Virus record (IMG/VR): IMGVR_UViG_3300025767_000115
Span: 1 to 25,342 of that record
Direction: 5' to 3' (one strand)
Source of the DNA: a virus
DNA length: 25,342 nucleotides
The notes below the pieces were generated by a model that did no database searches, was not told where the DNA came from, and saw only the letters and a list, made by a program, of their open reading frames with translations. Positions 2,525-15,904 of the stretch are shown here, in pieces. The translations under genes were made by a program, and so were the position numbers. Position 1 is the stretch's first letter. Each line of letters opens with the position of its first letter.

Positions 2525-5500
2525 ATGGAATACGGAGGAAAGAACCCAAACGGAATTAATCAGGTCAGTCAAAGTTTACTTTCGATTGATGTACAAGGAG
2601 TAGAGCAGATTAATATATCAACTTCTTCAGTTGATATTAATACGTCTTTAAATGTAGAGAATGGTGTAACCGCATCTTCATTTAGCGGTTCTTTTAGAGG
2701 GGACGGTTCAGAGTTGAACAACATCCCAACCACCGCATTAACTGGTGATATTGCTCGAATCGCAGAAGGTTCAGCAACCGCTTCATTAGAAAACGGAACA
2801 ACTTTAGAAATTAATGTAACCACCAACATCGATGGTGATGTTAATGCAACAGGTGAAATTTCTGGTGCATTTATTAGTGGTGATGGTAGTGGGTTATTTA
2901 ATGTACCTGCGGAAGCATTGGGAGATATTAATAGAATCAAATCAGGTTCAGCTCAAGCACAAATATCTCCAAACTTAGGATTAGTAGTTGATGCAAAAGC
3001 TACAATTAACAACGATTTATTAGTAACTGGTTCAGCTACATTTGAAACCGATGTTCAAATTGATAATGATTTGACTGTTGGTAGAGATATCATAGTAGAT
3101 AGAAACTTATCCGTAGCTGGTAGAATTACCGCACAAGAATTATTAACAACATTTATTTCATCATCAGTAATTTACGCATCGGGTTCGAATGTATTTGGTG
3201 ATGAATCAATCGATACCCATCAATTTACAGGTTCGGTTTTAATTAAAGATTCGGTAGTAATTCCAGTCTTTAGTTCGGAACCGGCTGGTGGACAAATCGG
3301 ACAATTATATTATAACAATACCGATACCAACATATATAGATACACCTCAACAGGATGGGAACCAGCGGCGGGTACTGCTGGTACTTCTGGTACAAGTGGT
3401 ACTTCTGGGACAAGTGGTTCTTCTGGTACAAGTGGAAGTAGTGGAACTTCTGGTGTAGATGGAACAAATGGTACTTCAGGTTCTTCTGGGACAAGTGGAA
3501 GTAGTGGTACTGATGGTTCTGCTGGAACTTCTGGTACAAGTGGAAGTTCTGGTACATCTGGTTCTTCTGGTACTGATGGTTCAGCTGGTTCATCCGGCAC
3601 ATCGGGTTCATCTGGTACTTCCGGCTCATCTGGTACTGATGGTTCTGCTGGTTCTTCTGGGACAAGTGGAAGTAGTGGTACTTCAGGTTCTTCTGGAACC
3701 AGCGGAAGTAGTGGAAAATCAGGTTCATCAGGAACTTCTGGTTCTTCTGGGACAAGTGGAAGTAGTGGTGTAGATGGTGAGCAAGGACCTCAAGGACCGG
3801 CTGGTAATGATGGTTCTTCTGGTACAAGTGGAAGTAGTGGGACTAGTGGAAGCAGTGGAACTTCTGGTTCAAGTGGAACATCGGGTTCATCTGGTAGAGA
3901 TGGGGCAGATGGTGTAGGTGGTTCAGCTGGTACTTCTGGTTCAAGTGGCACATCAGGTTCGTCTGGTACATCTGGTTCATCTGGAACCAGTGGAAGTTCT
4001 GGGGCAAGTGGTAGTAGTGGTTCTTCTGGAACAAGTGGAAGTAGTGGAACTTCAGGTAGAGATGGAGCTGGTGGTGAGGGTGGTACACCTGGTACTTCTG
4101 GTTCATCTGGTACTTCGGGTTCTTCTGGGACAAGCGGTAGTAGTGGAACTTCTGGTTCATCTGGTACATCTGGGAGTAGTGGTACATCTGGAAGTAGTGG
4201 TACATCTGGAAGTAGTGGAACTTCAGGTTCTTCTGGTACGAGCGGTGTAGATGGTGCGCAAGGTGTTCCAGGTTCACCCGGTACATCTGGTTCTTCTGGG
4301 ACGAGTGGAAGTAGTGGGACTTCGGGTTCATCTGGAACTTCTGGTTCAAGTGGTACTTCTGGTTCAAGCGGTACTTCTGGTTCTTCGGGTACATCTGGAA
4401 GTAGTGGTACTTCTGGCTCATCTGGTTCTTCGGGTTCATCTGGAACTTCTGGTTCAGGCGGTACTTCTGGTTCTTCTGGGACGAGTGGAAGTAGTGGAAC
4501 TTCGGGTACTTCTGGATTATTAGCATTGACAGGTAATACTGATAATGGTATTATCACACTAAATGGTTCAGCACCAAACGCAACCGTTGAAAGTAATCTT
4601 ACTTTCGATGGAACAACTTTGAGTATCATTGGTAATCTGAATGTATCTGGTACTCAAACGATAATGAATACCGAAATCGTTCAGATAGCAGATAATATTA
4701 TCACTCTTAATTCAAACTTTACTTCTGGTACTCCTTCGGAAAATGCCGGTATTGAAGTATTAAGAGGTTCAGAAGCAACTAGACAATTCTATTGGAATGA
4801 GGGAAGTGATAGATGGTACGCTGATACCAACTTCCAAGTAGCTGGTAGAATTTACGCAAACGATATTGATACTGGACAAGGTGCAACTGAGGTTTACCTA
4901 ATGAACCAAAATGTTCGTACATCGGATACCCCAACCTTTAGTGGTGTTTATACAACTAATATTGGTATCAATGATAGTGGAATGGATGTTTACATCAACT
5001 TTAGTGATGCAAACCCAACATTCAGAGGACAAACACATGGTGGTGAATTTAGATTCTATGGTGATAAAGACCAAAATGCATCGATGTTGTATTTGGGTTC
5101 AATTGATGCTGCTAAAATCATCGATGCTGGTGTGGCAATGTACGCACCAATTTACTACGATTCTGATAATGATTCATACTACTTAAATCCTGCTGGAACT
5201 TCAAACCTATATGGTTTAACAGTCAACCAAACTATTAGTGGTACAATTACGGATGCAACTCAATTAGTTAGAGAAGATAATAGAACTATTTCTCCATCAG
5301 AATTAACTTCTGGTAGAATGAAGTTTGGTTTTACTTCTTGGGCAAATAACAACTCATCTCCATACGCAGATTTCTTACATCTTCGTTCATACACCGATTC
5401 ATCTGGTGGTTCGGATAACTTAGTGATGTTTAAGAAATCAGGCATCGGAATGAGAATTTGGCAACAAACTTATGGTTCATCAACACCATACTCATCATAC

Positions 5501-8500
5501 GCTGATGTATTGGATTCTACAAATAATCCATATGCATACAATATGAATCAGTATGTGAGAACTACCGATTCTCCTCAATTTGCTAGAGTTTATATTGATA
5601 ATACATCAAACTACATAGATACCAATGCTGGTTACTTATCATTCAAATCGAATGGTAATGAAATGACATTTGGTGGTTCTACATCAATGTACATCAACTA
5701 TCGTGCTGCATTAGGTGGAACGCCTACAACTTGGATTTGGAATGCTGGTTCATCTACATCATATGCAACTCATTATATGGCGGACGTATATGGTGATAGA
5801 TTTTATGAGAGAACAAATACAGCATATTACTTAGACCCAGCTTCAACTTCTGTATTGAATAATATGAATATTGAAGATGGTATATATCATAATGGTGATA
5901 CCAACACTTATATGCAGTTCCATGCATCAGACCAATGGAGAGTTGTAACTGGTGGTTCGGAAAGATTAGAAGTTAATAACTCGGCGGTAAGTATTAATAG
6001 TGGTATTCCGTTAGTAATGCAAGGTCGAATTGAACCTGATACTCCGGATGATTATGACCAAACTGCGGTAACATCACTTACCAATGCACCAATATATTTC
6101 CCTGAATTAAATGTTGGTACAACGAATACATATTTACCAGCATTCCACATGCGTTCTAGATATAATTCTGGTTATAGAACTCATATGAATGTAGGTCTTT
6201 ACAAACGGGCTTCTGCTTGGGGTGATAACGATACTGGATTCTATGTTGCATTAGGTGGAAATGATTCTTACCCAACCAAAGAATGGAAATTTACTTACGG
6301 AACTCACATTTACAATTCCGATGGATTTGTGAGTACACCGGGTTCATTCAGAGCTCCAATATTCTATGATTACGATGATACCACATATAGAATCGATGGT
6401 AATGGTGATTCTATTTTAAGAAACTTAGAATTAAGAACTTATGGTTTAAGATTATTAAGAAACTACTCTTACAATGGTATTTGGTTCAATGGTGGAACTG
6501 ATGCAAACCACGTTCTTTGGAATGATTACTATGGTGGACCAACTTCAAAAGGCGCTGCGGGTAGTGGTACATTAGATGGAATGAAGTGGAACACTTTACA
6601 AGGTTTACACATTAGAGGTGGTTCTTCTGGAGCATATGATATAGCTAAATTTTGGAATCCATCATCATCTACTTCAAACGCACATTATGTACAACTTTAC
6701 GCAGCAAATGTAGAGCAATTAGGTACGAGAAGTGGATACGCATTGGCTCCAAACCAAATGAGGTCTCCAATTTATTATGATTATACCGATACTGGTGCAT
6801 ATATCGACCCTAATGGATATTCAAATATTTATCGTTCATCTGGGCCGGTAATTGATATTACAAAAACAGGTTCAGCACCTGGAAACGATACTACATTAAG
6901 AGTAACTAATACATATGGTAACCACTCTTGGGGTGTTGTTGGTGAATTTAGAATTGATGGTAATAGTGGTACTGATAAACCAGCCATCATCTTTACATCT
7001 GGTCAAACTTCAACAACTTGGGCTACGGGTTACAACCAAACCACATCTAATTTCGCTATCACACAAGATAGAGGATATAGAAATGGTGGTTGGGGAACTG
7101 TTAGAATGCAAGTTGATACATCTGGTAATGTTACTAACTATGTATCTACTTACTCTCCAATCTATTATGATAATAATAACAGCGCATATTACGCTGACCC
7201 TGATTCAAACTCACGGTTCTACGATTTACAATTAAGAGGAAACTATGTAAGAACATACGCTCACTCTGGTTCTGATTTCACATCTGGAACTTTAGTATCA
7301 ACCTCAATACCAGCATCAGCAACCAATGGTGCATCCTTTGTATTAGAGGCAACTGGTAAGAGTTATAGTGGCGATGCTCCATTCTCATTTATGGCACAGG
7401 GTTACCTATACGCTAACACCATCATCAATTATAGTGGTGTTCATTTTGGTAAACCAGGTTTCACTCAAATGAAGATATTCAATAATGGTGGAACATTAGC
7501 ATTCTGGTGGCCAAGAGTATCTTATTGGAACTCATTCGCAGTTCATGTAAGAGATGCTGGTGGTGATGATAGAAACTTAGTAACTTCTATCACAAACTCA
7601 ACCGAACCAACTGGTACTAAGAAGGTAACGGTAAATATGTTGGTTAGTGCAACATATGGTGTGAATAATAATACAGGTGATTTATACGCAACTCGGTACT
7701 ACGATTCAAATAACACCGCATTCTACACCGACCCTGCTTCTACATCTCAAATGAACTATATCGATGCACATCGATTTAGAGATAGAGATAATACTAACTA
7801 TTATTTAGAACCCGCAACTGGTGCTAACTTATATGGTAGCGCTGGTTCATTTGTAATCACAGGTGGATATCCACAATTGGTTATTCGCCAAAATGATGGT
7901 ACACCTGATGCATCAATTCACTTTGATGCTGGGTATGCGAGAAAATTCAATATTGGTCCTGGTGCTGGAACATCTGAAGAACGGGAATTTGGATTCTCAG
8001 TTTACTCCGCACCTAGAGGTACTCACTACTTCACTCCATTCAGAATAAATGCGGATACTGGGTATATTCAAATTGGTGATAGAGACAACCCAGCATATCC
8101 ATTAGATGTATTAGGAAATGCATACTTCAGAAATACCCTTTATATGGGTAATGACCAAGAAATTCAGTTGTTCACTTCTTCTGGAAACATTAGAGGTTAC
8201 ATTAAAGCAACTGAAAGTAATGATGCTCACTTAGTTATCGCAACATCTGGTGGTGAAGATATTTCATTCCGGGATGGTGGTACTGGTGGGCAGTGGAATA
8301 TGATTATTAGAGGTGATGGGCAAACATTAATCAACTCTAGAATTGATTCACCTATTTATTATGATAGAAACAATACTGCATATTATTTAGACCCAAATAC
8401 AACTGGTACATCATTAAATGCAGCTGGATTTATCAATGGTTCTAATATTAACACATATATTAGATATTTGGGTACGGGGGTTTCTTATGATAATGATAGA

Positions 8501-11500
8501 ACTCAAAAAGTTTCTAATGGTATTGCTATTTATAGGGCATATAATGGTGGTGCTAACTCACCTTGGACATATGATACATCGGTTCAATTCAATACCGCTG
8601 GTGCTGGATTTGAATTATCGGCTGATTGGATTTCATCAAATTCAACCGGATTAAAAATCCGCTCACTTAGAGATTGTTGTCAAAACTGGTCTTCTTGGAC
8701 TGATGTTGCAACATCTAATCGTTCATTTACCAACGCTGTTGATTTAAGAGCGCCAATCTTTTATGATTCCGATAATCCATCATATTTTGTGAATCCAAAC
8801 GGCCGTTCTCGTTTAGCGGAGATTGATTATGGTAACAGTGGATACTATTGGAGAAGTGGTTCTTGGGGTTGGAGACATCAAACTCCAAGTGGATATATTG
8901 AATTTGGACCTGCAAACACATCACATGCGCATATCTATACTGATAGAAGTAACTTCTACTTTAACCAGCAACTTCAAGTAAATGGAGGTACATTAATCAA
9001 CACAAATGATGTACAATCTCAGATTTTCTATGACAGAAATGATACTAACTATTATGTAGACCCAAATAGTACATCTAGATTAAACGCTCTCCAAGTTAAC
9101 AAAACTTATTATAGAGAAGATTACATTGATGTTCCTGGTTCATTCAATGGTTCTTATGCTTGGGTGAGATTTAATATTAGCAGATTTAATGGTGGTGGTT
9201 CACCTGTTGAATTCTCAATCTCTCGTAGAATTAATGATAATGGTAATAACCCATATGGTGGTTGTACCGCACGATATATTGTAAACTCTAGAGAATGGCA
9301 TAGTGGACAAGAAAATGCTTGGTATTTCTATACTGAACATGGTTCTTATAACGCAAATTCCAATCCTTATGGATACTTCATCCGTTCAGCCGGACCAAGA
9401 GATTTAGCTAGTGGTGGATATTGGTTCTACATGCAGTTGTTACAAGGTGTTCGTTACCGAATTTCCTTTGCATCGGATATGAACTTCAATAACAATGGTA
9501 TTGGGGGTATTGAGTATGGTGTATCTGATCCTGGTGGTGTAAGGAGACAATTATTGGGTAGTGGTGTTATGGGTAATAACTCCACTTACAACAATGTAAA
9601 CGCTGATAGATTCTATAACGGAGATGACCCATCATACTTTGCAGATTTTGGTTCTGAAATCAGAATGCCATACCAAAATGGTGGTACAATGAGATTTAGA
9701 ACCAATACTCATTGGGATTCTCAGTCTGGTATTGATTTAATTGGTGGAGCAGGTGAATTCAGAATGAGTTCTGATGTTGGTAACCTAAACTTGAGAGTTG
9801 ATGGTTGGGGTATTTTCTATGATTATGTAAACTCACCAATCTATTATGATTTAAATGATAGTGGATACTATGTAAATCCTCGTTCTCGTTCTAGAATGAG
9901 TGGATTGAATCTTAGAGGTGTTGATAACCAAGCTTCTGGTGATGATGCAATCTTATGGATTGAAAAACCAAACAACAATGATTGGGGTATGATTATCACT
10001 GGTAACTTGGATTACGGAATTGACCTTCGTATGGCGAGTTCACATACCTATGGTTTAAGATTGTTGAGTGGTGGTGGTGAATCGTTCTTATTGAACAATG
10101 ATTATGCTCGACATAACTCTGATATGAGAGCACCAATCTTCTACGATTCAAATGATACTGGATATTATGTAGACCCTAATAGTTACTCAAATATGGGTGA
10201 TATTAGAGGTACTGAAATCTACGCTAGAAACTGGTTCAGAAACGATAATAGTGGTGAAGGTTTATACAACCAATCTACTGGAATGCATTGGTACTCTGAT
10301 TCGAACCGGAGATGGAGAATCTATGGTGGACAATCTACTGTTGAACTTGCTATGGCAACCGCTGGTAACAACATCAGAGGTTACTTCTACGCAGATAACG
10401 GAAACTCAGTTGGTATCTTAGATGCTGGTGGAAGTTGGGCAATCAGACACGCAAATGATAATGGTACTTACTTCTATACTGATAATGGTACTTACGAATT
10501 TGGTGTTGGTAGAGATGTTGTAGGGGGTAATTATGGTACAGTTGTAACTACATCTACAAGAGGTGGATGGGGTGGTTACTCCATCAACAATGGTTGGGTA
10601 TTTATGCACGACCACTCAAACGCAGCTGGTATCTACAACGATTACGAAAATGAGTGGGCTATCTTAATGTATAGAAACTCATATGTTCAGTTAATGCACA
10701 ATGGTACATACCAATTAGAGACACAATCTTATGGTGTGTATATGAGAGACCAGGTAAGGGCTTCTATCTACTATGACCACAACACTGGATACTATTTCAA
10801 TGGTGATGGTCTATCTAGAATGAACCATGTTAACATAATTGGTTCAGCTGGTAGATACTCATTATTAGTTGGACCTGAGGTTACTTACACTAACGGACGG
10901 ACATCAATTTACAATGATAGTAATAGATATGGTGTAGTTGTAAACGCACCATATTACCCACATTTATACATCAACGCTTACGCTGATAATGGTAACACCA
11001 CTCATGGTGCTGTATTATCAATGTTGGGTAACTTAACTTCTGGTGGATATAGAAAGTGGAATATGGGTATCGCAAACCGAAACCCAAATGAATTCTCAAT
11101 TGGGTGGTACGATAACAACGAAAACCCTCACTATGGTGTTGGTGTTGGTTGGTCTTATCCTGCTAGATGGTGGATTGATACTGGTGGTAATAGTATCGCA
11201 ACAGGTTCTCATAGAGCACCAATCTTCTACGATTACGACAATACCGGATACTATACAAACCCAGCCTCATATTCAAATATGAACGAAGGTAACTTCGCTG
11301 GTAGAATGTGGTTTAGTAATTACCTTGTAAGTAGAAACCAAGGTGGTATGATGGGTGATTACAATGTCACTGGTACTCGGTCAAAAGTAATTTGGACAAT
11401 TGGTGAAAGCTGGCCTATTGGTAATATGTACGGATTGGCGTATGAGTATGGTAGTGGATATGACCACCACCTTGCTCTAAGAAACAATGGTAGTACATAT

Positions 11501-12811
11501 CATAGAATAAGTTTCGCTAGCCAGGGTGCATACTTTAGTGGTAATGTAATAGCTGGTTCATCTCATAGAGCACCAATCTTCTACGATTCGAATAATACGG
11601 GTTACTATATGGACCCAACTTCAGATTCTAACTGGGAAGGGTTATCTACCTATGGTAAAATGAGAATCGGTTTGACTGCTAGGTCAAACTACCGAAGAAA
11701 CAACTACACTGGTGATTCTCGTTATTGGACTGGTGTACATGGTTGGGGAACAACGGATTTAATCTCAATGTTCGACCAAGGTTCTGGTTTCATCGATACA
11801 TGGTCAAACCCAGCTAACCAACCTGCTGGTACATCTCACTGGGTAGGTATCCAAGCATCTCACTTTAATGGTGGATACAACTATGGATATGGTATCCAAA
11901 TCGTTGGTGGACCAATCCAAGGTTTATGGCATACCTCATACTGGTCATCTAAGAGAAGTTGGTACAAAATTGCGATGTATGAGTTGAATGAATATTCAAA
12001 CGCATTCTACGCAACTGTAATGTATGATTCCAACGATACTAGTTATCGTATCGACCCGAATAGTTCATCTCAATTACGGCAGGTATATGCAAACGACTGG
12101 TTCAGAGCACAAGGTGCAAGTGGTTTCTACTTCCAAGATAGAGGATGTGGTATCCGTGCAGTAAGAGATGAAGGTGGACAGTATGGTACTGTTGCTACTT
12201 ATGGTTCGGATGTTGGTGGATACGAAGGTTTCTCTATCGGTGGTAGAATGGTATTCATGCATGATATGAGTTCTGCTAACGGTCTTTACAATGATGTTGA
12301 GAACGAATGGCATACATTAGGATATCGAAACGCTTGGTACGGAATCTATTACAATGGTTCTAGAAAAGGTAGAGCTGAATCTTATGGTTGGGCAGTTGAA
12401 GGTGATTTAAGAGCTACTGGTGATGTTATCGCTTACTACTCTGATATGAGATTGAAGGATAAGGTAGGTGATATCGAAAACGCTCTTGATAAAGTTTCTA
12501 AATTAAATGGTTTCTATTATAGAAACAATAAAGAAGCCAATATGATTGGTTATGAGGGAACTAATTTACAAGTAGGTCTTTCAGCGCAAGAAGTTGAAGA
12601 AGTTCTTCCTGAAATCGTTCACCCAGCTCCATTAGCACAATCATTAGGATATGATTACAAAACTATCAACTACGATAGAGTTGTACCTCTTTTAGTTAAC
12701 GCAATTAAAGAACAAAAATCAATTGTGGATGAACAAAAAGAAGAAATCGAATATTTAAAGTCAGAACTTTCAGAAATGAAAGAAATGTTGAAAAAATTAT
12801 TAAACAAATAA
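2525..12811 (+). CDS. Giant collagen-like tail fibre with 17 YYD/DP motifs and Peptidase_S74 C-terminus
   Basis: One uninterrupted frame encodes 3428 residues. Residues 1-282 form a beta-rich head with two fibre motifs (FRGDGSELNNIP; ISGDGSGLFNVP) and the segment YASGSNVFGDESIDTHQFTG, a pattern common in T4-like fibre proteins. Residues 283-664 are a perfect Gly-X-Y stretch. Residues of about 665-790 hold a conserved fibre block (TQTIMNTEIVQIADNIITLN). Residues 873-3184 carry 17 copies of 'PI.YDsndtgYYvDPns.S', each followed by a different beta-rich module. The end is a Peptidase_S74 intramolecular chaperone: SDMRLK (Ser3306, Lys3311), GLSAQEVEEVLPEIV, then a coiled coil (about 3393-3428). 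By analogy with endosialidase-type S74 domains, cleavage before Ser3306 would release 123 residues after trimerisation. GAGG precedes the ATG. Fibre identity is secure; receptor and module folds are unknown. Confidence 0.92.
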   Translation: MEYGGKNPNGINQVSQSLLSIDVQGVEQINISTSSVDINTSLNVENGVTASSFSGSFRGDGSELNNIPTTALTGDIARIAEGSATASLENGTTLEINVTTNIDGDVNATGEISGAFISGDGSGLFNVPAEALGDINRIKSGSAQAQISPNLGLVVDAKATINNDLLVTGSATFETDVQIDNDLTVGRDIIVDRNLSVAGRITAQELLTTFISSSVIYASGSNVFGDESIDTHQFTGSVLIKDSVVIPVFSSEPAGGQIGQLYYNNTDTNIYRYTSTGWEPAAGTAGTSGTSGTSGTSGSSGTSGSSGTSGVDGTNGTSGSSGTSGSSGTDGSAGTSGTSGSSGTSGSSGTDGSAGSSGTSGSSGTSGSSGTDGSAGSSGTSGSSGTSGSSGTSGSSGKSGSSGTSGSSGTSGSSGVDGEQGPQGPAGNDGSSGTSGSSGTSGSSGTSGSSGTSGSSGRDGADGVGGSAGTSGSSGTSGSSGTSGSSGTSGSSGASGSSGSSGTSGSSGTSGRDGAGGEGGTPGTSGSSGTSGSSGTSGSSGTSGSSGTSGSSGTSGSSGTSGSSGTSGSSGTSGVDGAQGVPGSPGTSGSSGTSGSSGTSGSSGTSGSSGTSGSSGTSGSSGTSGSSGTSGSSGSSGSSGTSGSGGTSGSSGTSGSSGTSGTSGLLALTGNTDNGIITLNGSAPNATVESNLTFDGTTLSIIGNLNVSGTQTIMNTEIVQIADNIITLNSNFTSGTPSENAGIEVLRGSEATRQFYWNEGSDRWYADTNFQVAGRIYANDIDTGQGATEVYLMNQNVRTSDTPTFSGVYTTNIGINDSGMDVYINFSDANPTFRGQTHGGEFRFYGDKDQNASMLYLGSIDAAKIIDAGVAMYAPIYYDSDNDSYYLNPAGTSNLYGLTVNQTISGTITDATQLVREDNRTISPSELTSGRMKFGFTSWANNNSSPYADFLHLRSYTDSSGGSDNLVMFKKSGIGMRIWQQTYGSSTPYSSYADVLDSTNNPYAYNMNQYVRTTDSPQFARVYIDNTSNYIDTNAGYLSFKSNGNEMTFGGSTSMYINYRAALGGTPTTWIWNAGSSTSYATHYMADVYGDRFYERTNTAYYLDPASTSVLNNMNIEDGIYHNGDTNTYMQFHASDQWRVVTGGSERLEVNNSAVSINSGIPLVMQGRIEPDTPDDYDQTAVTSLTNAPIYFPELNVGTTNTYLPAFHMRSRYNSGYRTHMNVGLYKRASAWGDNDTGFYVALGGNDSYPTKEWKFTYGTHIYNSDGFVSTPGSFRAPIFYDYDDTTYRIDGNGDSILRNLELRTYGLRLLRNYSYNGIWFNGGTDANHVLWNDYYGGPTSKGAAGSGTLDGMKWNTLQGLHIRGGSSGAYDIAKFWNPSSSTSNAHYVQLYAANVEQLGTRSGYALAPNQMRSPIYYDYTDTGAYIDPNGYSNIYRSSGPVIDITKTGSAPGNDTTLRVTNTYGNHSWGVVGEFRIDGNSGTDKPAIIFTSGQTSTTWATGYNQTTSNFAITQDRGYRNGGWGTVRMQVDTSGNVTNYVSTYSPIYYDNNNSAYYADPDSNSRFYDLQLRGNYVRTYAHSGSDFTSGTLVSTSIPASATNGASFVLEATGKSYSGDAPFSFMAQGYLYANTIINYSGVHFGKPGFTQMKIFNNGGTLAFWWPRVSYWNSFAVHVRDAGGDDRNLVTSITNSTEPTGTKKVTVNMLVSATYGVNNNTGDLYATRYYDSNNTAFYTDPASTSQMNYIDAHRFRDRDNTNYYLEPATGANLYGSAGSFVITGGYPQLVIRQNDGTPDASIHFDAGYARKFNIGPGAGTSEEREFGFSVYSAPRGTHYFTPFRINADTGYIQIGDRDNPAYPLDVLGNAYFRNTLYMGNDQEIQLFTSSGNIRGYIKATESNDAHLVIATSGGEDISFRDGGTGGQWNMIIRGDGQTLINSRIDSPIYYDRNNTAYYLDPNTTGTSLNAAGFINGSNINTYIRYLGTGVSYDNDRTQKVSNGIAIYRAYNGGANSPWTYDTSVQFNTAGAGFELSADWISSNSTGLKIRSLRDCCQNWSSWTDVATSNRSFTNAVDLRAPIFYDSDNPSYFVNPNGRSRLAEIDYGNSGYYWRSGSWGWRHQTPSGYIEFGPANTSHAHIYTDRSNFYFNQQLQVNGGTLINTNDVQSQIFYDRNDTNYYVDPNSTSRLNALQVNKTYYREDYIDVPGSFNGSYAWVRFNISRFNGGGSPVEFSISRRINDNGNNPYGGCTARYIVNSREWHSGQENAWYFYTEHGSYNANSNPYGYFIRSAGPRDLASGGYWFYMQLLQGVRYRISFASDMNFNNNGIGGIEYGVSDPGGVRRQLLGSGVMGNNSTYNNVNADRFYNGDDPSYFADFGSEIRMPYQNGGTMRFRTNTHWDSQSGIDLIGGAGEFRMSSDVGNLNLRVDGWGIFYDYVNSPIYYDLNDSGYYVNPRSRSRMSGLNLRGVDNQASGDDAILWIEKPNNNDWGMIITGNLDYGIDLRMASSHTYGLRLLSGGGESFLLNNDYARHNSDMRAPIFYDSNDTGYYVDPNSYSNMGDIRGTEIYARNWFRNDNSGEGLYNQSTGMHWYSDSNRRWRIYGGQSTVELAMATAGNNIRGYFYADNGNSVGILDAGGSWAIRHANDNGTYFYTDNGTYEFGVGRDVVGGNYGTVVTTSTRGGWGGYSINNGWVFMHDHSNAAGIYNDYENEWAILMYRNSYVQLMHNGTYQLETQSYGVYMRDQVRASIYYDHNTGYYFNGDGLSRMNHVNIIGSAGRYSLLVGPEVTYTNGRTSIYNDSNRYGVVVNAPYYPHLYINAYADNGNTTHGAVLSMLGNLTSGGYRKWNMGIANRNPNEFSIGWYDNNENPHYGVGVGWSYPARWWIDTGGNSIATGSHRAPIFYDYDNTGYYTNPASYSNMNEGNFAGRMWFSNYLVSRNQGGMMGDYNVTGTRSKVIWTIGESWPIGNMYGLAYEYGSGYDHHLALRNNGSTYHRISFASQGAYFSGNVIAGSSHRAPIFYDSNNTGYYMDPTSDSNWEGLSTYGKMRIGLTARSNYRRNNYTGDSRYWTGVHGWGTTDLISMFDQGSGFIDTWSNPANQPAGTSHWVGIQASHFNGGYNYGYGIQIVGGPIQGLWHTSYWSSKRSWYKIAMYELNEYSNAFYATVMYDSNDTSYRIDPNSSSQLRQVYANDWFRAQGASGFYFQDRGCGIRAVRDEGGQYGTVATYGSDVGGYEGFSIGGRMVFMHDMSSANGLYNDVENEWHTLGYRNAWYGIYYNGSRKGRAESYGWAVEGDLRATGDVIAYYSDMRLKDKVGDIENALDKVSKLNGFYYRNNKEANMIGYEGTNLQVGLSAQEVEEVLPEIVHPAPLAQSLGYDYKTINYDRVVPLLVNAIKEQKSIVDEQKEEIEYLKSELSEMKEMLKKLLNK
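3371..4516 (+). repeat. Collagen-like Gly-X-Y coding repeat, 127 triplets, within the giant fibre gene
   Basis: Glycine occupies every third residue from 283 to 664 with no phase break. Most triplets are GTS and GSS, arranged as six-residue GTSGSS units, with occasional punctuation such as GVDG, GEQGPQGPAG, GRDGADG and GSPG. At DNA level this is an 18-base quasi-repeat. A 29-base block starting GGTTCTTCTGGGACAAGTGG recurs near 3479, 3650 and 3740, and a version with ACGAGTGG recurs near 4289 and 4469. Identical synonymous codon choice in these blocks points to duplication or recombination and not only to protein-level selection. The product would form a trimeric triple-helical stalk. Confidence 0.9.
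5141..12076 (+). repeat. Seventeen degenerate copies of a 'P-I-[YF]-Y-D...YY-x-D-P...S' motif in the giant fibre
   Basis: A segment of about 22 residues recurs with starts near 5141, 5790, 6350, 6761, 7151, 7685, 7766, 8345, 8748, 9012, 9600, 9830, 10128, 10756, 11214, 11565 and 12008. Examples are APIFYDSNDTGYYVDPNS (10128), SPIYYDNNNSAYYADPDS (7151) and APIFYDSNNTGYYMDPTS (11565). Copies near 9600, 10756 and 6350 are degenerate, missing the DP or the second tyrosine. Spacing runs from about 80 to 650 bases, and the intervening sequence differs each time. The copies look like module boundaries or a repeated strand-turn-strand element along the fibre. Confidence 0.85.
10400..10760 (+). repeat. 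Duplicated fibre module, copy A (paralogue near 12100-12425)
   Basis: This segment encodes GGNYGTVVT...FMHDHSNAAGIYNDYENEW...YRNSY. The second copy encodes GGQYGTVAT...FMHDMSSANGLYNDVENEW...YRNAW. The order of conserved blocks is the same, and both copies are followed by a Q/ESYG element. Each sits downstream of a YYD/DP motif copy. The divergence indicates an old internal duplication, or the same module acquired twice. Confidence 0.7.
12100..12425 (+). repeat. Duplicated fibre module, copy B (directly before the S74 domain)
   Basis: This is the partner of the module near 10400-10760, sharing the FMHD, YND-ENEW and YRN blocks in the same order. It lies immediately upstream of the Peptidase_S74 domain (from about 12430), so it would be the receptor-distal tip of the mature fibre once the chaperone is cleaved away. 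Confidence 0.7.
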
Positions 12812-13606: not shown

Positions 13607-15904
13607 ATGGCAGAAAGAATTGTATCACCTGGTGTGTTCACAAGAGAAAATGACCTTTCATTCTTAGCACAAGGTGTAGGAGAAATAGGAGCAGCGTTTA
13701 TCGGACCTTTTAAGCAAGGACCAGCGTTTGTTCCCACAATTGTAAGAACTCAATCGGAGTTCGAAGATAAATTTGGTAGACCTGATGGTACTTACTATAC
13801 AGAGTATGCGGTTCAGAACTATTTAAGAGAAGCTGGAACTGCAACTATTGTTAGAGTAGCAGGTGTAGGTGGTTACCAACAAGCAGCACCAATTGGTTTA
13901 TTAGCTAGTGGTTCTGATGGAACTGTAAAATTAATCGCAGCTCTTCACTCAACATCAAATGGTGATGAAGAAGTTGGATTTAGTGGTTTCACAGTAACTG
14001 CATCTGATACTGTATCTGGTTCATTTGTGGTTAGTGGTAGTGGTCTTGGTGAAATTTCTTCATCATTACTTTCATCAGCTAACAACGATGTAACTGATGT
14101 ATTTGGTGTATCTGCATTGGGAACTAAAGATGCATATACCTACGCTTACTTCAGAAACGCAGTAGATGGTATTAATTTAAATGTAACTGAAAGTAAAGCT
14201 GTATTAGCAGAAGCACTTCCAACTCAGGACTTCGCTTATGATGCTAGTGTAGCAGCAACTCCTTGGGTTAAATCACAACTTATCTCCGGTGAAAGATATG
14301 ACCTATTCCGTTTCCATACTTTAGGACATGGTAATGGAGAAAACACAAGATTCAAAGTTTCTATCTCTGGTGTAAAAGCAGCGGGTGAAGATGGTGGAAC
14401 TGATTACTCAGTATTTAGTGTAACCATCCGTTCATTTGCGGATACCGATAAGAGAAAAGTAGTATTAGAAACATTTAATAATGTAAACTTAGACCCATCA
14501 TCTCCAAATTACATCGCAAGAGTAATTGGTGATAGATACTATACTGTTGATTCAGAAGGTAAGATTACTGAAAATGGTGATTGGTTGAATAACTCTAAAT
14601 ACATTAGAGTAGAGGTTGGAGCACAAGGTTCTTATCCTGTATCAGCTGCACCATTCGCACATGGAGCTTATGAAAACCCAATCAAAGTAACTGACCCAAC
14701 TTTAGTACCTGCGGTAGTTTACCAAACAACTTCAACTTCAAACACAACTGGTAATCCTTATCAATATGCTGGTTTTGATTTCGAAACTACTGGTGTTAAA
14801 GTGGATAACGCTAACTACTTAAAACCAATCCCTAATACGGCTGGTACTGGTTCGAATGTAGTATTCGGATTCGATTCTCAACTATCATTAGAAATGACTG
14901 GTTCTGCAGCAGCAGATATGATTAAGAGACAATTCACATTGGCATTCCAAGGTGGATTTGATGGAATGAGTCCTGCTAGAGAAATTGCTTTAGGAGCATC
15001 AATCTCAGCTGGTAACTCACAAGGATTTGATTTAACTGATTCAACTGCTAGTGGTTCAGTAGCATACGCTAAAGCTGTAAACGCAATCTCTAACGCTGAT
15101 GAGTTTGATATCAATATGGTAGTAACTCCAGGTATCGTAAGAAGATTACATACCGCAGTTGTAACTGATGTAATCGATATGGTAGAAGCTAGACAAGATT
15201 GTTTCTACATCTCAGACTTTACCGCAATCAATGATACTATCGCTCAGGCAACCGCACAAGCGGCAGCAGTAGATTCTAACTATGTTGGAACTTACTACCC
15301 TTGGGTTAAGACAGTAGATAACAATACTAACAAACTAATCTCAGTACCACCTTCAGTATTACTACCGGCGGTTTACGCAGCAAATGACGCTATTGCAGCT
15401 GAATGGTTCGCACCTGCTGGTTTGAATAGAGGTGGAATTGTAGGAGCAGTTTCAGTATTGAATAGATTAACACACTCTGAAAGAGATACTTTATACGAAA
15501 ACAAAGTAAACCCAATCGCTTCTTTCCCTGGACAAGGTATTGTGGCATTCGGACAGAAAACTTTGCAAGATAAGGCATCAGCATTGGATAGAATCAATGT
15601 AAGAAGATTATTAATCGGAGTTAAGAAATTCGTAGCATCTACTTCTAGATTCTTAGTGTTCGAACAAAATACCGCTCAGACAAGAGGTAGATTTATCAAC
15701 ACTGTACAACCTTACTTAGAGGGTATCCAACAAAGACAAGGATTGTACGCATTCAAAGTGGTTATGGATGAGACTAACAACACACCTGATGTGGTTGATA
15801 GAAACATACTTGCTGGACAGATTTTCCTCCAACCAACTAAGACCGCTGAATTCATTGTAATTGATTTCAACATCTTACCAACTGGAGCATCGTTCTCGGC
15901 ATAA
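13607..15904 (+). CDS. gp18: Contractile tail sheath protein (T4 gp18-like)
   Basis: The product is 765 residues (T4 gp18 has 659). The N-terminus MAERIVSPGVFTRENDLS, then GAAFIGPFKQGPAFVPTIV and FGRPDGTYYTEYAVQNYLREAG, is the hallmark start of tail sheath subunits. The C-terminal part (from about residue 505) carries the conserved packing domain: VVTDVIDMVEARQDCFYISDF, YYPWVKTVDN, VPPSVLLPAVYAAND, WFAPAGLNRGG, LDRINVRRLLIGVKKFV and a beta-rich end (IFLQPTKTAEFIVIDFNI). The variable middle (about 90-430) is the outward-facing insertion typical of this family. It polymerises around the tail tube and contracts on infection. GGAG at 13598-13601 precedes the ATG by 5 bases. The tube gene follows, as in T4. 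Identity is secure. Confidence 0.95.
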   Translation: MAERIVSPGVFTRENDLSFLAQGVGEIGAAFIGPFKQGPAFVPTIVRTQSEFEDKFGRPDGTYYTEYAVQNYLREAGTATIVRVAGVGGYQQAAPIGLLASGSDGTVKLIAALHSTSNGDEEVGFSGFTVTASDTVSGSFVVSGSGLGEISSSLLSSANNDVTDVFGVSALGTKDAYTYAYFRNAVDGINLNVTESKAVLAEALPTQDFAYDASVAATPWVKSQLISGERYDLFRFHTLGHGNGENTRFKVSISGVKAAGEDGGTDYSVFSVTIRSFADTDKRKVVLETFNNVNLDPSSPNYIARVIGDRYYTVDSEGKITENGDWLNNSKYIRVEVGAQGSYPVSAAPFAHGAYENPIKVTDPTLVPAVVYQTTSTSNTTGNPYQYAGFDFETTGVKVDNANYLKPIPNTAGTGSNVVFGFDSQLSLEMTGSAAADMIKRQFTLAFQGGFDGMSPAREIALGASISAGNSQGFDLTDSTASGSVAYAKAVNAISNADEFDINMVVTPGIVRRLHTAVVTDVIDMVEARQDCFYISDFTAINDTIAQATAQAAAVDSNYVGTYYPWVKTVDNNTNKLISVPPSVLLPAVYAANDAIAAEWFAPAGLNRGGIVGAVSVLNRLTHSERDTLYENKVNPIASFPGQGIVAFGQKTLQDKASALDRINVRRLLIGVKKFVASTSRFLVFEQNTAQTRGRFINTVQPYLEGIQQRQGLYAFKVVMDETNNTPDVVDRNILAGQIFLQPTKTAEFIVIDFNILPTGASFSA

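Follow-up and report, generated by a model that had tools for sequence, protein, structure and literature searches.

A recurrent Tyr/Asp-rich motif separates exchanged modules in a giant predicted phage tail fibre

Introduction

Why should a single viral protein carry the same short motif seventeen times, with stretches between the copies that look unrelated to one another? The protein is encoded in IMG/VR virus record IMGVR_UViG_3300025767_000115, which comes from environmental DNA and was analysed here as a window of 25,342 bases (the whole stretch of DNA considered). The original prediction for this locus held that the motif may be a fixed scaffold or hinge while the segments between its copies are exchangeable, receptor-binding modules, and proposed that recombination breakpoints between related phages be examined for their position relative to the motif. 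Here we examine the motif, the modules and the breakpoints across related fibres, and weigh what the modules and the motif might do.

Results

A giant open reading frame within a tail gene cluster

Profile matches indicate that the open reading frame at 2525-12811 encodes a tail fibre, and the gene sits in a phage tail cluster, with an assembly chaperone and additional fibre-like reading frames upstream and with sheath, tube and baseplate genes downstream:

2525-12811, + strand: giant tail-fibre open reading frame, 3428 aa (PHROG tail fiber phrog_8745, E = 6e-67)
3371-4618, + strand: collagen-like Gly-X-Y shaft with GTSGSSG repeats (Pfam Collagen, E = 9.7e-46)
12440-12619, + strand: Peptidase_S74 intramolecular chaperone (Pfam, E = 4.9e-12; T4 distal fibre 6f45, E = 5.6e-7)
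1336-1791, + strand: tail fibre assembly chaperone gene (Pfam Phage_tail_APC, E = 6.8e-18)
13607-15904, + strand: tail sheath, our yardstick of vertical descent (profile and homology matches)

The fibre is ordered, from N to C terminus, as collagen-like shaft, motif region and S74 chaperone. Glycine occupies 93% of one phase of the collagen-like stretch, as in a long Gly-X-Y repeat, and the S74 domain lies at the C terminus with a Pfam score above the cutoff, as in S74-terminated phage tail fibres. Among named phages, the closest relatives of the sheath belong to a Microcystis phage (47%) and to Flavobacterium phages (52%, over half of the protein). The reading frame at 409-1329, which adjoins the fibre assembly gene and has a weak PKD-like match as well as a match to phrog_9915 (function unknown), is possibly a second adhesin.

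The tetranucleotide GATC occurs once in the window (1-25342; at 9527), as compared with 84.6 occurrences expected from dinucleotide-preserving shuffles, and is also rare across 77 related fibre regions (161 occurrences vs 1,072 of GACC). Such scarcity suggests that the site is strongly avoided, perhaps in response to a host restriction enzyme.

Seventeen copies of the motif

A motif profile trained on 11 copies recovered 16 copies in the fibre, scoring 13.4-48.4 bits as compared with a maximum of 4.7 bits across 300 shuffles of the region. An additional copy (copy 11; aa 2363-2374, nt 9611-9646) is degenerate and scores under the threshold; since DNA homology to nine related contigs begins inside it, at nt 9627-9633, we regard it as real, and the predicted count of seventeen copies across 5141-12076 thus stands, with the region ending at about 12076-12079. 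The copies are as follows, with homology blocks shared with related loci (L003, L083, L084 and L094) located by DNA alignment:

5141-5212, + strand: motif copy 1 (profile, 35.3 bits)
5789-5860, + strand: motif copy 2 (profile, 23.1 bits)
6350-6421, + strand: motif copy 3; an L084 homology block begins at 6410 (profile, DNA alignment)
6761-6832, + strand: motif copy 4; the L084 block begun in copy 3 ends at 6782-6814 (profile, DNA alignment)
7151-7222, + strand: motif copy 5; an L084 block of 87% nucleotide identity begins at 7157 (profile, DNA alignment)
7685-7756, + strand: motif copy 6, first member of a tandem pair (profile)
7763-7834, + strand: motif copy 7, second member, start-to-start distance 26 aa (profile)
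8345-8416, + strand: motif copy 8; an L084 block ends at 8376-8404 (profile, DNA alignment)
8747-8818, + strand: motif copy 9 (profile)
9014-9085, + strand: motif copy 10; L083 and L084 homology begins here (profile, DNA alignment)
9611-9646, + strand: motif copy 11, degenerate; homology boundary for nine contigs (sub-threshold profile, DNA alignment)
9830-9901, + strand: motif copy 12 (profile)
10127-10198, + strand: motif copy 13 (profile)
10757-10825, + strand: motif copy 14; L003 and L083 blocks end at 10795-10797 (profile, DNA alignment)
11213-11284, + strand: motif copy 15 (profile)
11567-11638, + strand: motif copy 16; L003, L083 and L094 homology begins at its first base, 11567 (profile, DNA alignment)
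12008-12079, + strand: motif copy 17 (profile)

The gaps between copies, predicted at 5 to 190 residues, measure 8-187 aa between profile hits. The accompanying claim that the inserts are dissimilar holds for most of them, the exceptions being aa 2558-2744 and 3185-3305, which have a 72-aa stretch in common (51% identity, E = 1e-21), and several weaker module pairs. This shared piece (10523-10735 and 12173-12388 in the window) overlaps the best match to phrog_8745.

Modules recur in different orders among related fibres

Related loci were recruited with the sheath (80) and with the modules F60 and F3 (15 and at least 80) as baits, a non-random sample from which we retained 77 non-redundant IMG/VR fibres bearing two or more motifs, 22 in some; many loci are fragmentary, and F1 loci found later were left out of the statistics. 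Modules were defined as stretches of at least 40 aa, counting the 120-aa flanks that border each motif region on both sides (n = 755), and were grouped into families by single-linkage clustering with cutoffs of 35% identity and 75% coverage. By these definitions, 657 of the 755 stretches group into 75 families, including five in the window:

7223-7684, + strand: module family F19 (family clustering)
9902-10126, + strand: module family F10 (family clustering)
10199-10756, + strand: module family F9, predicted all-beta with a mid-module pLDDT of 54-84 (clustering, AlphaFold)
11285-11566, + strand: module family F3, 94 aa, with relatives 61-92% identical in at least 80 loci (clustering, module search)
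11639-12007, + strand: module family F1 (clustering, module search)

Neighbours change: only 21% of same-family pairs have the same right neighbour, and the 54 occurrences of F3 adjoin 25 different families on the left and 17 on the right. Reversals of module order occur in 472 of 1274 fibre pairs; a duplicated family is present in 28 of the 77 fibres. The order is still not random, and since 84% of module-pair orders are concordant, substitution in place is commoner than transposition. Prokaryote genomes scanned with the F3 module yielded no relative. Two loci (L013 and L014) carry single inserts of more than 1,000 residues between two motifs, and an insert of about 410 residues is shared.

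Homology between relatives is lost at the motif

Across pairs of fibres that share only the left module, excess identity is about 0.7 until 11 residues before the motif, declines through the motif and reaches zero just past it, and pairs that share only the right module mirror this pattern. The loss within the motif persists when each family context is given one vote (260 left, 398 right). A scan that is free of module definitions gave the same picture, with homology lost in 60-66% of cases across the motif as compared with 7-12% mid-module. At the DNA level, 46% of the ends of blocks with at least 85% identity fall within the motif (18% for random positions) and 59% fall within 15 bases of it (25%). 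About 40-50% of block ends lie away from any detected motif, and degenerate motifs that escape detection depress the measured concentration; at some module edges the sequence is itself a mosaic in the 10-20 residues nearest the motif.

A single close relative illustrates the exchange. The sheath of L084 is 93% identical to that of the window, yet only 8/16 modules are shared, and the shared DNA blocks mostly end in motifs, with edges (6410, 6782-6814, 7157, 8376-8404 and 9005-9066) inside motif copies or at most 9 bases from them. Colinear divergence without module swaps, which would speak against exchangeable modules, was looked for, and modules were found to be swapped between relatives; nor did the motif prove to map to the core of each domain. 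The central expectation of the original prediction, that relatives swap whole modules with breakpoints at the motif, is therefore borne out by the breakpoint analysis that it had proposed.

Do the modules bind receptors?

In well-studied phage fibres, contact is made by the part that changes fastest, and receptor contact is usually expected at the C-terminal tip, the usual variable part. Judging from locus and precedent, the variable contact surface of this fibre is probably formed by the modules. Within-family conservation is strong (F3 as above; 16 invariant residues over 24 members in F1), unlike that of neutral filler. The prediction of receptor binding nevertheless finds no corroboration in profile searches of motif and modules against Pfam, PHROGs and PDB, which returned nothing firm and no known binding domain. 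A weak match between F9 and the cyanophage P-SCSP1u fibre gp28 (8i4m; E = 0.009) contains no single significant domain and was set aside. The poor AlphaFold models, used as queries in fold searches, gave no match at E = 0.001; T4 gp34, which topped one list at E = 0.05, was likewise set aside.

Diversity along the fibre bears on the same question. Counting back from the S74 end in 69 S74-ended fibres, we find 7-10 families per 30 fibres at positions -1 to -3 and 18-21 at mid-shaft positions -7 to -10, so that diversity is lowest beside the S74 end and highest mid-shaft. The modules could accordingly be structural knobs or spacers along the shaft that do not bind, comparable to the globular knobs of long tail fibres, with swaps tolerated since nothing would hinge on which module is present, and with specificity residing in the C-terminal tip or in another fibre. 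The low diversity of tip-proximal modules, the lack of a known binding fold among the modules as a whole and the fibre-like genes upstream all fit such spacers, which sit poorly with the within-family conservation and with the rule that the fast-changing part makes contact. We consider spacers rather unlikely, and they retain the weight that they do mainly because the diversity pattern reverses the usual variable tip.

The motif is a stackable protein unit

Over 254 copies, the consensus (about -3 to +28) reads (D/S)(M/V/L)RAPIFYDxNNTGYYVDPxSTSxL, a Tyr/Asp-rich motif of 24-26 residues. Tandem motifs are exactly 26 residues apart in 44/56 cases and occur in runs of up to three, a fixed spacing that argues for a self-contained, stackable unit. 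It had been supposed that a module was lost between the back-to-back copies near 7685 and 7766. This can be discarded, because fixed 26-residue tandems recur in many fibres; the pair is better read as a repeat unit, and the same pair occupies the place between the same two modules in L084.

The motif is probably a beta-hairpin connector. In both of two AlphaFold monomer models it forms two short strands flanking an NNT turn; with a mean pLDDT of 43-47 (about 27-45 in the motif), both are poor and therefore weak evidence for a hairpin. A profile search of solved structures in the PDB found no match to the motif, and literature searches for it found nothing.

As an alternative to a hairpin connector, the motif may be a metal-binding loop resembling the DxDxDG calcium loops, which would stiffen the shaft at its joints. 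Four candidate positions (D6, N/D8, T/S/D/N10 and D/N15) each show 86-96% conservation across 686 copies, but position 6 of the loop is Gly in only 62% of these (A, S, N or T instead), which departs from such loops, NNTG is also an ordinary hairpin turn, and no solved structure matches the motif, all of which makes a metal loop improbable. That the motif is instead preserved for its nucleotides, as a recombination site or hot spot in the DNA, would fit the concentration of breakpoints and the skew of some motif codons (e.g., GAC for 70% of Asp vs 14% elsewhere), but it is very improbable and largely refuted by codon use, as the skews largely follow sequence context also present outside the motif (the next base or next residue), the Asp-Pro skew follows from GATC avoidance, residues that are identical have matching codons in 57% of pairs (53% expected), near the fibre background once context is considered, and motif copies average 55% nucleotide identity. 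Codon use thus indicates that the motif is conserved as protein and not as a DNA site.

Discussion

We favour, as reasonably probable, an explanation in which a trimeric fibre uses the motif as a standard shaft connector, recombination at or next to the motif exchanges modules, and the modules serve as the probable contact surface, this last part being the least certain. The protein would be a trimer with a collagen-like proximal shaft, a chain of about 16 modules and a self-chaperoning S74 end, in which each motif would form a self-contained connector, its hairpin packing against the two other chains. With the same connector joining every module, a module from a foreign phage could be taken up in frame and leave the fold intact. 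When two phages infect the same cell, short stretches of identity at or next to the motif may then seed recombination, by which modules are replaced, inserted, deleted or moved. Short exact runs that could act as seeds do exist: only 1.3% of random motif pairs share an exact run of 20 bases, but two fibres with 17 copies each allow 289 pairings, so that a few usable seed pairs would be expected per phage pair.

The closest precedent is recombination at conserved motifs in T-even fibres: the distal subunit of the long tail fibre (T4 gp37/gp38) reportedly recombines between conserved motifs, as Tetart, Desplats and Krisch are said to have described in 1998. There, too, short conserved fibre motifs mark the exchange of adhesin segments among related phages; breakpoints between relatives fall at a conserved motif in both systems, and an S74-type domain is common to our fibre and the T4-like distal fibre structure 6f45. 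The T-even motifs, rich in glycine, are located in the tip adhesin, whereas the motif described here is Tyr/Asp-rich, occurs in 17 copies along the shaft and flanks whole modules. Its consensus (RAPIFYDxNNTGYYVDPxSTS) is neither glycine-rich nor of the His-box type, and we found no sequence relation between the two kinds of motif.

Fibre mosaicism is general in phage receptor-binding proteins, according to the portion of Smug et al. 2023 (PMC10684548) drawn on here, which likewise describes tail-fibre domains shared between proteins with unrelated neighbours, together with recent exchange. In that material N- or C-terminal parts are swapped, and a fixed connector that recurs and delimits many internal cassettes is not mentioned. 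The fibres of extracellular contractile injection systems (PMC12923769) similarly combine shaft repeats, collagen and S74 with varied modules; in the part of that report used here, families are set by the baseplate-attachment domain and no such motif is mentioned. Among 50,697 records, the only named phage with the motif is Synechococcus phage DSL-LC03, whose fibre (WJZ47903.1, OR003938.1; 3161 aa) contains the same motif five times and has an S74-like end. Unlike the fibre studied here, it is without the collagen-like repeat, has only five copies and is annotated as hypothetical. What differs here from these systems is a single connector, repeated up to 22 times, that bounds internal cassettes.

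More tentatively, and as a possibility that we put below the explanation favoured above, the fibre may be a plug-in adhesin of an aquatic phage family, with a universal 26-residue trimeric connector and at least 75 interchangeable families. With its modules mixed along the shaft, such a fibre would show at least a dozen distinct binding surfaces simultaneously, and the re-ordering of slots, instead of point mutation at the tip, would drive the evolution of host range.

The fibres described here provide naturally tested junction rules for fibre modules, with a defined connector, at least 75 families and hundreds of left/right combinations, and make the building of new adhesins without breaking the trimer directly testable. 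They also suggest that, in a widespread uncultured group of phages, host recognition may spread along the shaft, beyond the tip.
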